Below, piece by piece: positions 43,349-46,812 of a DNA stretch of 64,000 nucleotides; positions within the stretch are counted from its first letter, which is position 1, and every line of letters starts with the position of its first letter. Made by a program: the position numbers and the translations under genes. The notes under the pieces are model-generated. The model ran no database searches and was not told the origin of the DNA. It worked only from the letters and a program-made list of their open reading frames with translations. This DNA is from Corynebacterium sp. sy039 (GTDB lineage Bacteria > Actinomycetota > Actinomycetes > Mycobacteriales > Mycobacteriaceae), in the NCBI RefSeq assembly GCF_007904105.1, contig NZ_CP042325.1, forward strand, positions 1,736,001-1,800,000. The letters run 5' to 3'.

Positions 43349-45042
43349 TTACGCTACGCGCAGATGTCCGCCAGTAGTTACTTTAGGACGGTCTTTCTTC
43401 GCTACAGTCTTAGCCTGCTTAGCGACGTTATCCTTTACGCTTTCAGAGATAACAGTCTTAGGTGCAGGCTTAGATTCAGCAGGTTCTACCGCTGTGGTAA
43501 CAACCTCACCCTGCTCAACCTCAGTGTCTGTATCAGGCAACGTTGGTGGAACAACAGGCTTCACCGGTTCCTCACGTTCCTCAGGACGATCAACCGGCTT
43601 CACAGGTTTCTCCTGCTCAGGCTCCTGTGGTTCTTCAGAAGGAGTAGGTTCCTGAGTTTCCTCACTTGGAGTTGGCTCCTCAGACTCCCCAGGTTCCTCG
43701 CTAGAGGTTGGCTCCTCAGACTGCTCAGGTTCCTCAGAATCAGTTGGTTCTTCAGTTTCCTTAGAAGGCTTAGCAGGACCAACCTCCTCATCCTCTTCAG
43801 TCACAGGAGTAGACTCCTCATCAGGACAAAGAGTAATATGCTGGAAGCCCTGGTCGCAGTTATCCTCACCACCAAGCAACGAACCATAATAATTCACGGC
43901 AGGATTCAAGTAAAGGCTAAATGTCTTCACATACTGTCGGTAGCGATCACCACCAGACTCAATATCAGTGCCAATCGTGTCAAACCGATCAGTGTTACGA
44001 GTAACAGCACAGGTACCCACACTCGTTAAACCATGCTTCGTACCTTGCTCAGCATACAAAGCAGCAATCTTCTCATTCTCCAAAGCGATTTCTTTGTTGC
44101 GCTGCTCAATCTCTGCTTTACGAGCTGAAGATGCAGACTCATCCTCCGGAATCATTGGGATAGAGACAGGAGGTAATTCACCCGTACGACCCCACACATA
44201 TTCTTTCAGATTCAAGCAACCCTCTTCAGTGCTACCAGGTCCACCACCCTCAGCAGAGCACTTCCACAACATATTATCCGCACGAATCGGCACATACGTA
44301 TCATCACCAACAGCCTCCACAGTACCGGTGACCTCGAAAGTGAATACACCCACTGTGTTCAAGCCGATTTGGTAGAAATCCCAATCAGGCTGATCAGCAA
44401 AAGAAGAGCGCTGAACACCATATATACCCTTGTTACCATCAGCTAAAGTGTTATTATCAGCTAAAGAACCATAAGGATTCTTCACAAACGACGACACTTT
44501 ATACGTGTCATTATCAGTAAGCTCTGCTATCGAATCAACGATCGGAACCTGATAGTCCACTGCCTTGGCAGGAACATAACTATCATTCTCATGGGTAATG
44601 ATATTTGCTTCAGGTAGCGGATTACCATCTGCATCTTCCCACTGAGTTTCCCGGAGATGCCCTTTGCCATCATCAACTGGTCGCATGTAAATATCAGGCA
44701 TATGCGTGAGTTTGATGGATACATCTTTGACTGTAGATGGGATCATAATCTGCGCACCACTAGTAGTTTGGATGTGATCCCCAGAAAAAACCAATGGTGA
44801 CAATTGCACTTGCCACGTGACCTGTGTTTCATCCCCCACTTGTTTCACACAGGTCGAACCAGTGTCACAGTTCGCACCACCCCACGAACCAAAAACACTA
44901 TCAGCACCACCGCGCTGGATACCATCATCAGAACCGCCAGGACCAGCGGCTAATACTGAGGGGGGGGGGATAGAAAACCCGCACCAAGCATACCAACGGC
45001 AACCACTACCGCAGCACGCTTAGCAAAACGTTGTAAAAACAT
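43349..45042 (-). CDS. Phase-variable secreted Cys-rich protein, paralogue 1; currently OFF by frameshift in a C10 tract
   Basis: From ATG 45042 (AGAGGAAAT upstream) the frame encodes signal-peptide sequence MFLQRFAKRAAVVVAVGMLGAG, runs into ten C (44960-44969) and stops at TAG 44950 after 30 codons. One more C restores SPPPSVLAAGPGG and a 564-residue protein. The body from about residue 65 holds a domain with seven cysteines (WGGANCDTGSTC, DNCDQGFQHITLC), then a long Glu/Ser/Pro repeat region and a basic C-terminus KDRPKVTTGGHLRVA. No LPXTG or membrane anchor is present. Strongly similar to the next gene, with which it shares leader and 3' end. The family is not recognised; adhesin or shield function is only a guess. 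Confidence 0.85.
44960..44969 (-). repeat. Homopolymer C10 (minus strand) in signal-peptide coding region
   Basis: Ten G on the plus strand, in codons 25-28 of paralogue 1. Length modulo 3 decides the frame: 11 reads through, 10 stops three codons after the tract. The equivalent site in paralogue 2 has 11. Confidence 0.95.
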
Positions 45043-45152
45043 ATTTCCTCTTACTTTTCTTCCTAGGAAAAAGAACAAAAACACTTTCCAAGCCATCCTC
45101 AGCCACAAAATACAAAGCTGAGAAAAACCTAAAAGCGTTTCCCATCATAACC
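45043..45152 (-). promoter_or_regulatory. Conserved leader of paralogue 1, copy of 46664-46762
   Basis: Both secreted-protein genes share about 100 bases upstream of the ATG, including CTTGGAAAGTG, GTTCTTTTTCCTAGGA and a TATGAT hexamer (minus strand; 45144-45149 and 46754-46759) that could be the -10. This implies a recent duplication and common regulation with a leader of roughly 90-100 bases. Confidence 0.6.
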
Positions 45153-45166
45153 CAAGCAACACAGAA

Positions 45167-45193
45167 AGTCCTAGCACCAATGGTGCTAGGACT
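45167..45193 (-). terminator. Terminator after second secreted-protein gene
   Basis: A 12-bp perfect stem (AGTCCTAGCACC / GGTGCTAGGACT) with a 3-base loop, 25 bases past the stop at 45218. It lies just upstream of the paralogue 1 leader. Confidence 0.78.
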
Positions 45194-45217
45194 CTTAAAA
45201 AACTTAAGAAACAAAAA

Positions 45218-46663
45218 TTACGCTACGCGCAGATGACCACCCGTGGTTACTTTAGGACGGTCTTTCTTCGCCACAGTCTTAGCCTGCTTAGCGACGTTAT
45301 CCTTCACACTTTCAGAGATAACAGTCTTAGGTGCAGGCTTAGACTCAGCAGGTTTACCTTGCTCAGATTGAGCAGATGGTACAAACTTACTCTCAGAAGA
45401 AACAGGTTCTTCACTAGAACTAGGTTCTCCAGGCCCCTGCGCTTTCTTAGAAGATGTAGGTTCCTCAGACTCCTGTGGTTCTTCGCTAGAGGTTGGCTCC
45501 TTAGTTTCCTTAGAAGGCTTAGCAGGACCAACCTTTTCAGGCTCTTCAGAAGGAGTAGGCTCTTCAGACTCTACAGGCTCCTCACTAGGTGGAATCTCAG
45601 ACTCCTCATCAGGGCACAGCGTAATATGCTGGAACCCCTGATCACAGTTATCCTCATCACCATTGAGCGAACCATAAAAATTCACCTGAGGAAGTAAGTA
45701 AAGGTTAAACATATCCCGATACGCATGATGCTTCCCCTCGGCAGCCTCCTCAATATCACTACCAATAGTGTCAAAACGATCCGTATTCTGCGTTACCGCA
45801 CACGCACCAACACCAGTCAAACCATCAACTTTCCCCTGCTTCTTATATAGTTCGACAATCTTGTTACGCGTTTCCTCAGACTGCTCAGCAGTTGTCACAG
45901 GAGGCAACTCACCAGTACGAAACTCCACTTTCTCTTTTAGGTTATGGCAGTCTTCCTCCGCGCTACCAGGGGTAACACCCTCAGATCCGCACTTCCATAG
46001 TGCATTCTCAGCCCGAATCGGAACATAAGTATCCGCACCAACTGCTTCCACAGTACCAGTGACCTCAAAGGTGTAAATACCGTTTCCTAGCAACCCAGCT
46101 TGATAGAAATCCCAATCAGGTTGGTTCTCAAAAGTAGAAGGCTTCACGCCATACGTCGTAACAGAATCTTCAACTTCACTCAACGAACCATAAGGGTTCT
46201 TCACAAACGACGCTATATAGTATGTTTCATCATCAGGCACTTCCTCCATTGAATCAACAATCGGAACCTGATAATCTACCTCCTGCACAGGATCATAGTC
46301 CTCAGTCTCCTGTGGAGATTCATCTGGCATATGCGTCAACTTAATTGACACATCTTTCACCGTGGATGGAATCATGATCTGCGCACCACGAGATGTTTGG
46401 ATGTGATCATCAGATGATACTAATTTAGCTAGCTGCACCTGCCACGTGACTTGCTTTTCATCCCCCACTTGCTTTACACAGACCGAACCCGTATCACAGT
46501 TCGCACCACCCCACGAACCATGAACATTATCAACAGTCTTTTGGTAGCCGTCGCTACCGCTACTACTGGCTAATACCGAGGGGGGGGGGGCTAGAAAACT
46601 CGAACCAAGCACACCAACGGCAACCACAGCCGCAGCACGCTTAGCAAAACGATTCAACAACAT
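45218..46663 (-). CDS. Phase-variable secreted Cys-rich protein, paralogue 2; ON with a C11 tract
   Basis: 481 residues from ATG 46663 (AGGAGAG six bases upstream). The signal peptide MLLNRFAKRAAAVVAVGVLG continues through a proline run encoded by C11 to a likely cleavage after SVLA. The mature core (about 40-350) carries seven cysteines and motifs shared with paralogue 1: QIMIPSTVKDVSIKLTHMPD, SFVKNPYGSL, TFEVTGTVEAVG, RTGELPPV, NTDRFDTIG. Residues about 355-440 are Glu/Ser/Pro repeats (SEEP, TPSEE) suited to a wall-spanning stalk. It ends with KDNVAKQAKTVAKKDRPKV and TTGGHLRVA. No sorting signal is seen. Function unknown. Confidence 0.88.
   Translation of the reverse strand: MLLNRFAKRAAAVVAVGVLGSSFLAPPPSVLASSSGSDGYQKTVDNVHGSWGGANCDTGSVCVKQVGDEKQVTWQVQLAKLVSSDDHIQTSRGAQIMIPSTVKDVSIKLTHMPDESPQETEDYDPVQEVDYQVPIVDSMEEVPDDETYYIASFVKNPYGSLSEVEDSVTTYGVKPSTFENQPDWDFYQAGLLGNGIYTFEVTGTVEAVGADTYVPIRAENALWKCGSEGVTPGSAEEDCHNLKEKVEFRTGELPPVTTAEQSEETRNKIVELYKKQGKVDGLTGVGACAVTQNTDRFDTIGSDIEEAAEGKHHAYRDMFNLYLLPQVNFYGSLNGDEDNCDQGFQHITLCPDEESEIPPSEEPVESEEPTPSEEPEKVGPAKPSKETKEPTSSEEPQESEEPTSSKKAQGPGEPSSSEEPVSSESKFVPSAQSEQGKPAESKPAPKTVISESVKDNVAKQAKTVAKKDRPKVTTGGHLRVA
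46580..46590 (-). repeat. Homopolymer C11 (minus strand) in signal-peptide coding region
   Basis: Eleven G on the plus strand encode GCC-CCC-CCC-CCC at codons 25-28 of paralogue 2 and keep the frame open. It is the same site as the C10 tract in paralogue 1. Confidence 0.95.
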
Positions 46664-46762
46664 TATTTCTCTCCTAGGAAAAAGAACAAAAAACACTTTC
46701 CAAGCCCTCCCAACCACAAACACAAAGCTGAGAAAAACCTAAAAGCATTTCTCATCATAACC
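46664..46762 (-). promoter_or_regulatory. Conserved leader of paralogue 2, copy of 45043-45152
   Basis: Near-identical to the leader of paralogue 1 apart from small indels in A runs. It contains the shared TATGAT candidate -10 at 46754-46759. Confidence 0.6.
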
Positions 46763-46812
46763 ACAAAACCGTCGAATAAACCAGCTCAACGTCGCAAAGC
46801 CAGCATAGTTTC

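Follow-up and report, generated by a model that had tools for sequence, protein, structure and literature searches.

Twenty paralogous genes with signal-peptide poly-C tracts in Corynebacterium sp. sy039, a candidate phase-variable family of exported proteins

The gene pair m11 and m10

The 64,000-nucleotide stretch of Corynebacterium sp. sy039 analysed here (contig NZ_CP042325.1, positions 1,736,001 to 1,800,000; the window) contains two adjacent paralogous genes, m11 and m10, that carry a run of cytosines within the signal peptide. The run comprises 11 cytosines in m11, whose reading frame is open (ON by frame), and 10 in m10, whose start-codon frame closes shortly after the tract (OFF by frame). 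The pair belongs to a family of exported proteins that is probably phase-variable and would work in the manner of the Opa proteins of Neisseria gonorrhoeae. The features of the locus are as follows, in window coordinates.

46664..46764, minus strand: upstream block of m11, family-conserved in a 20-gene alignment, with TATGAT at 46759-46754 (possible -10 element) and a purine-rich stretch before the ATG
45218..46663, minus strand: m11, exported paralogue of 481 amino acids (aa) with a C11 tract and an open frame (ON by frame); ATG at 46663
46580..46590, minus strand: C11 tract of m11 (G11 on the plus strand), within a signal peptide that reads ...SSFLAPPPSVLA ahead of SS..., with the cleavage site between them judged by eye
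45605..46567, minus strand: predicted folded domain of m11, beta-rich, with a mean predicted local distance difference test score (pLDDT) of 82.7 in the model
45218..45604, minus strand: Ser/Glu/Pro-rich tail of m11, terminating in RPKVTTGGHLRVA, the C-terminal motif common to all 20 tract genes
45164..45195, minus strand: terminator-like hairpin between m11 and m10 (AGTCCTAGCACC...GGTGCTAGGACT), from folding energy
45043..45153, minus strand: upstream block of m10, the same conserved block as in m11, with TATGAT at 45149-45144
44970..45042, minus strand: start codon (ATG at 45042) and first part of the signal peptide of m10, ahead of the tract
44960..44969, minus strand: C10 tract in the signal peptide of m10 (G10 on the plus strand)
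44950..44952, minus strand: TAG in the start-codon frame of m10, 30 codons in (OFF by frame)
43349..44959, minus strand: remainder of m10, a 536-codon open frame past the tract, in a frame that differs from that of the start codon

The start-codon frame of m10 encodes MFLQRFAKRAAVVVAVGMLGAGFLSPPPQY and then reaches the TAG at 44952-44950, and the mature frame, followed upstream, holds no ATG, GTG or TTG before its stop. The codon that receives the first two cytosines of the tract is GCC in m11 and TCC in m10. The hairpin between the genes has a folding energy of -30.3 kcal/mol over an 88-base stretch (z -4.9), a value equalled by none of 200 shuffles; a terminator pattern scan did not list it, and we infer its terminator role. 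The upstream block of m11 is similarly absent from the output of a consensus promoter scan, and its promoter role is putative. As a hairpin lies between the two genes and each has its own conserved upstream block, m11 and m10 are probably separate transcription units. Beyond the two tracts, the window contains no G/C run of at least 7 and no A/T run of at least 9. Neither protein matches a Pfam or NCBIfam family above cut-off, the best NCBIfam match being at chance level (E 0.93, 8.4 bits against a cut-off of 625), and the same scans gave no LPXTG match for the proteins of the window. These proteins also have no PDB sequence match at E 0.01, a missing match that does not exclude kinship of the Opa type.

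An earlier note on this DNA had placed C10 and C11 tracts at the same signal-peptide site of adjacent paralogues, the C11 gene reading through and the C10 gene ending after 30 codons. The sequence confirms each of these points (tracts at 44960-44969 and 46580-46590, m11 open from 46663 to 45218 over 481 aa, TAG of m10 at 44952-44950). Its proposal that the two genes switch independently, giving four expression states, agrees with the separate transcription units but is too narrow, as 20 tract genes and a promoter-region class of tracts exist in the genome. The earlier note was thus right in kind and too small in scope, its pair being two of 20 tract-bearing paralogues, and its description of the exported proteins as abundant is unsupported.

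The tract family across the genome

The genome consists of a single contig of 2,236,339 bases, in which a profile search recovers 21 copies of the family. In 20 of these, the same site of the gene holds a pure tract of C9-C11, above the length of about 8 from which such tracts can slip; the 20 genes are arranged in ten clusters of one to three genes, and all 20 are co-oriented with replication as judged by GC-skew arms. The 21st copy (1976124-1977158), located between two family members, has an interrupted tract that is always readable, an early end and the usual tail in another frame. The same truncated form is seen in a protein record from Corynebacterium sp. sy017 (P0013).

Long G/C runs are far more numerous in this genome than expected. 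We counted 42 of at least 8 bases, 37 of at least 9 and 33 of at least 10, the last against an expectation of 0.1-2.2 under Markov models of order 1-5 trained on the 64-kb window, while A/T runs of at least 9 number seven. Twenty of the 42 runs of at least 8 occupy the same place in this one gene family, and the two most numerous sets of runs are both located at genes for exported proteins.

By frame, five of the 20 tract genes are ON and 15 are OFF. Four ON genes have C11 (at 611298, 1782590, which is m11, 1975781 and 1978849), and the fifth, m14 at 1918209, has C10 and an upstream part of different length. The OFF genes comprise 13 with C10, the commonest length (14 of 20), and two with C9. 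Tract length sets readability: C11 is open in four of four genes, and C9 or C10 is closed in 15 of 16, m14 being the exception. None of the 13 C10-OFF genes has an ATG, GTG or TTG ahead of the tract in the mature frame, so that, internal starts further down aside, the OFF state is clean in these genes; of the two C9 copies, one likewise lacks an upstream start in the mature frame and one has a GTG and a TTG. Past the tract, the OFF copies retain open frames of 478-550 codons.

The tract itself looks selected: across the 20 genes, only 15 of the 881 proline codons outside the signal peptide, in the mature parts, are CCC, and the paralogues have reached a synonymous divergence (dS) of about 0.8, but every one of the 20 tracts is pure, its full codons all being CCC. 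Amino-acid identity of the mature parts averages 0.70 (range 0.47-0.92). For conserved domain windows, variable windows and the tail, median dS is 0.79, 0.94 and 0.50, and the ratio of nonsynonymous to synonymous divergence (dN/dS) is 0.23, 0.54 and 0.22, respectively; these values rest on 181, 166 and 188 usable pairs of 190, ON and OFF copies pooled. The open frames of OFF copies, together with dN/dS of 0.22-0.23, suggest that these copies are expressed often enough for selection to act. Copies that differ by one or two mismatches in the 84 flanking bases differ in tract length, with 9, 10 and 11 all occurring; no pair of tract genes with zero flank mismatches was available for this comparison. 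Each copy also retains the conserved upstream block in the 20-gene alignment.

Outside this genome, the family includes 12 protein records that bear the names Corynebacterium sp. sy017 or SY003. They are 66-99% identical to the best copy here, and the repertoires thus overlap without being the same. Ten of the 12 begin past the tract. Records of this family often start in this way, so that database entries lack the signal peptide and describe hypothetical proteins with no export signal. A search with residues 1-60 of an ON protein gave two matches among 161 candidates, P0013 and P0027, of which only P0027 is a full-length tract protein. Homologues of m11 occur in six of 242 Corynebacterium species genomes, its own included. 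The tract-plus-flank pattern occurs 20 times here and in none of the other 241, and the five other homologue-bearing genomes have no G/C run of at least 7 in the signal peptides of their copies. The expansion of the family and its signal-peptide tract are thus derived features of the present lineage. One of these relatives (G241) has two family copies, and a C10 run lies about 190 bases ahead of the start of one of them (L061:3988-3997). An upstream tract at a family gene therefore exists once elsewhere, and is possibly an upstream switch in a relative that lacks the signal-peptide tract.

Slipped-strand switching and its alternatives

We propose that these genes form a slipped-strand, phase-variable family of exported proteins, Opa-like in working and switched by a homopolymer, and give this reading a probability of about 0.85. 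Replication slippage (slipped-strand mispairing) would be the likely source of changes to the C9-C11 tract, one base at a time. Such a change would bring the mature part, of about 500 codons, into or out of the reading frame set by the start codon, and the product of each gene would flip from an exported protein to a short peptide, of 30 residues in m10, and back. Since each copy has its own conserved upstream block, the flips would be independent of those of sibling genes, and neighbouring cells could then wear different protein coats. The rate and reversibility of slippage, the surface location and a role as adhesin or variable antigen are parts of this picture that we infer. A MutS_V domain was not found in this genome, in a search for which 11 of 14 genomes gave a positive control, and the genome does have NucS. 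In M. smegmatis, NucS leaves indels of 1-2 bases unrepaired, which the authors tie to phase variation (PMC11551767); by analogy, the same blindness would presumably hold in Corynebacterium.

The phase-switch interpretation, as first put forward for the pair, is favoured by a frame-setting homopolymer, by one readable and one unreadable gene and by tract purity in all 20 copies, but switching itself, and reversible switching within a clone in particular, is a proposal. A difference in tract length between isolates also speaks for it: the SY003 record P0002, which matches m1 at 90% identity over its length and shares its first mature residues, reads MRVFYPPPSVLA across the tract, a peptide that among lengths 8-12 is produced by C9 alone, whereas m1 here has C11 and is ON. 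As a check, m20 (C9 here) and its record P0011 read as P0002 does. Several points weigh against the reading. This is the single orthologous length difference that is directly readable, and not every copy is seen to vary: in P0027, an orthologue of m14 with 97% identity, the readable phase is unchanged (PPPSVLA). We dropped the starts of gene calls as evidence for ON and OFF states; they prove nothing, because the ON genes of this genome lack full-length records too. The share of ON genes (4 of 19, leaving out m14 with its upstream part of different length) is not distinguishable from one third (P = 0.19), so that neither selection for expression nor selection against it is apparent. Fourfold-site identity is 0.89 in the signal peptide versus 0.61-0.76 in the mature parts (19 genes, m14 excluded), and given this greater likeness of the signal-peptide cassette, recent gene conversion or constraint on the DNA may add to tract purity. 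Homopolymer lengths are also where assemblies err. In Propionibacterium acnes, tract lengths vary by clade, which has been read as slow accumulation (PMC4746626); variation that followed clades in this way would point more to inherited states than to rapid switching.

Three other explanations were weighed. The tract might be leaky, with transcriptional slippage or ribosomal frameshifting on C9-C11 yielding some full-length protein from every copy, so that tract length would set a level and there would be no on or off. RNA polymerase can indeed slip on homopolymers this long, but C runs make it slip less than A/T runs do; we regard a leaky tract as unlikely, and it can coexist with switching at the DNA level. 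Slightly less likely still is that the family is a mostly silent archive, whose OFF copies donate to a few expressed ones by gene conversion and whose tract is a relic of the ancestral gene. The excess of OFF copies (15 of 20) and a cassette more conserved than the rest are as expected under conversion, which can accompany switching. Against an archive stand the OFF frames of 478-550 codons that have been kept, the dN/dS of 0.22-0.23 in conserved windows and tail (ON and OFF pooled) and the upstream block retained by each copy, and a relic tract would decay into mixed proline codons.

Assembly error would dispose of the length differences altogether: all tracts would in truth share a single length and phase, and homopolymer miscalls would account for the variation. 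Homopolymers this long are error-prone, C10 dominates (14 of 20), and Scholz et al. raised the same concern for such tracts (PMC4746626). Yet runs of 12 and 13 were called elsewhere in the genome, the window otherwise has long open reading frames (ORFs), one of 3060 aa, and the SY003 record implies C9 at the orthologue of a C11 gene. An artefact of this kind would moreover leave the purity of the tract in 20 copies unexplained, and we consider it very improbable.

A second tract class and relation to known systems

Besides the signal-peptide tracts (class 1), the genome has a second set of recurrent tracts (class 2), which are candidates for promoter-type switches.

56863, 63032, 65143, 265652, 309938, 553244 and 2111722 (genome positions): class-2 loci, G11-G13 tracts 49-51 bases before the start codon, with near-identical flanks

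These tracts precede seven large exported proteins of 632 to 1971 aa. The 1971-aa protein has DUF7507 repeats, and the 632-aa protein has no Pfam match. A TGGACA-like hexamer lies before the tract and TA(C/T)TCT after it, both of them putative promoter elements. Six of the seven loci fit one flank pattern, which none of the 241 other Corynebacterium genomes contains.

The two classes share a C-terminal motif. All 20 class-1 proteins terminate in VTTGGHLR followed by a final pair of small residues (VA, AA, SA or VV; in m11, window 45218-45260), and six of the seven class-2 proteins end in RVTTGG(H/I)L and a short tail, the ORF at 2111722 lacking the motif. An LPXTG sequence with hydrophobic stretch and charged tail is present at the C-terminus of none of the 20 class-1 proteins. 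Two distant relatives, P0032 and the copy in genome G087, have a sortase-type or hydrophobic stretch at the C-terminus instead of VTTGG(H/I)L, which we consider a candidate surface-retention motif. Tentatively, and at rather less than even odds, we envisage a two-tier stochastic coat, in which about 20 mid-size proteins would be switched at translation by signal-peptide C tracts and seven large exported ones at transcription by G tracts near the promoter. VTTGG(H/I)L may then be a new retention signal for the mycolate envelope, and the tiers may be topped by switchable regulators, namely an ORF beside a ShbA/SigD-type sigma factor gene and an hsdM gene with C9 (both described below). If true, this would be a leader-repeat repertoire larger than that of Opa, in an actinobacterium.

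Opa proteins are outer-membrane beta-barrels, and the genus Corynebacterium has a mycolic-acid envelope. In N. gonorrhoeae, CTCTT repeats in the leaders of about 11 opa genes set the reading frame and change in about 1 in 1000 cells per generation (PMC3745409). As in Opa, the family described here is an exported multigene family in which a signal-peptide repeat in each gene (here in 20 of 21 copies) sets the frame of the mature part. It differs in having poly-C in place of a CTCTT pentamer, 20 copies, a Gram-positive host and no known receptor. The family thus appears to work like Opa and is not an Opa member.

Among actinobacteria, P. acnes offers the closer comparison. Its gene PPA2127 begins, at the 5' end, with a cytosine tract, and PPA1880 is preceded by a guanine tract that lies within a putative promoter spacer (PMC3224659); the species has 54 variable tracts, of which 96% are G/C (PMC4746626). 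Both switch types are therefore represented, a frameshifting C tract as in class 1 and a G tract upstream of the start as in class 2, and the P. acnes genes likewise include secreted adhesin candidates with low-complexity C-terminal repeats (PMC3224659). There, single genes carry the tracts, whereas here we find a 20-copy family and a seven-copy set. The phasome loci of Campylobacter jejuni are mostly unrelated genes, unlike the 20 of 42 runs of at least 8 that fall in one protein family here. The NCTC11168 phasome, with 29 poly-G/poly-C loci, resembles the present genome in its count of long G/C tracts and in its multi-locus combinatorial states (PMC4965091). Long homopolymer tracts with indels are also reported from Gardnerella and Mycobacterium, and the accessible parts of those reports describe no comparable paralogous signal-peptide family (PMC11287997, PMC11898584).

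In the open-licence PMC literature, we found no paper on such a family in Corynebacterium. As far as searches of that literature tell, a 20-copy leader-tract family in a Corynebacterium is new as a combination, and its component switches are already known. The earlier note's term "undescribed system" is for that reason too strong in the strict sense, since Opa leader repeats (PMC3745409) and homopolymer switches of actinobacterial adhesin candidates (PMC3224659) are in print. Should switching be confirmed, a Gram-positive actinobacterium would have independently built an equivalent of Opa, with a switch that uses the very class of mutation that NucS repair leaves alone, as tested in M. smegmatis. 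Combinatorial expression could then be counted over 20 loci in a bacterium that lacks a detectable MutS, the influence of NucS-type repair on homopolymers could be measured directly, and the family would point to a new envelope-retention signal.

Other genomes rich in long runs were considered as further cases. Of the 241 other Corynebacterium genomes, G021 (35) and G120 (33) come close to the 37 runs of at least 9 found here, and G008 (53) and G020 (60) exceed it. G008 and G020 were rejected, many of the 16 places listed for each being in dense clusters or near contig ends. G021 (nine stretches of 71-76% GC, runs of 9-13) and G005 (five stretches of 54-62% GC, runs of 9-14) were also set aside, as their stretches share no context. 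G005 has 24 G/C runs of at least 9, and four of its five stretches lack a frame of at least 150 codons open across the tract; it may have promoter-type tracts.

Single tracts were also noted elsewhere in the sy039 genome. At 445845, a G10 tract lies within codons 10-13 of an ORF adjoining a ShbA-type sigma factor gene (NF007230) and is currently in frame (L034:3018-3962). By position only, following the gene order of sigD and rsdA, this ORF is a putative anti-sigma factor gene; a switchable anti-sigma factor, if true, would be unusual. At 959545, C9 on the coding strand is located at residue 543 of an hsdM-like ORF (TIGR00497) that ends just past the tract, and a 249-codon ORF without a family match follows in another frame, the two pieces having been searched separately; this locus possibly encodes a phase-variable type I methyltransferase. 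Single G10/C10 tracts further occur upstream of or near gene starts at 745757, 918305, 944294, 977539, 1051760, 2040129 and 2149687, where the genes, most of them named by eye, are lipoprotein-like, an MFS transporter, ABC-type, a 691-aa membrane protein and transposase-like.

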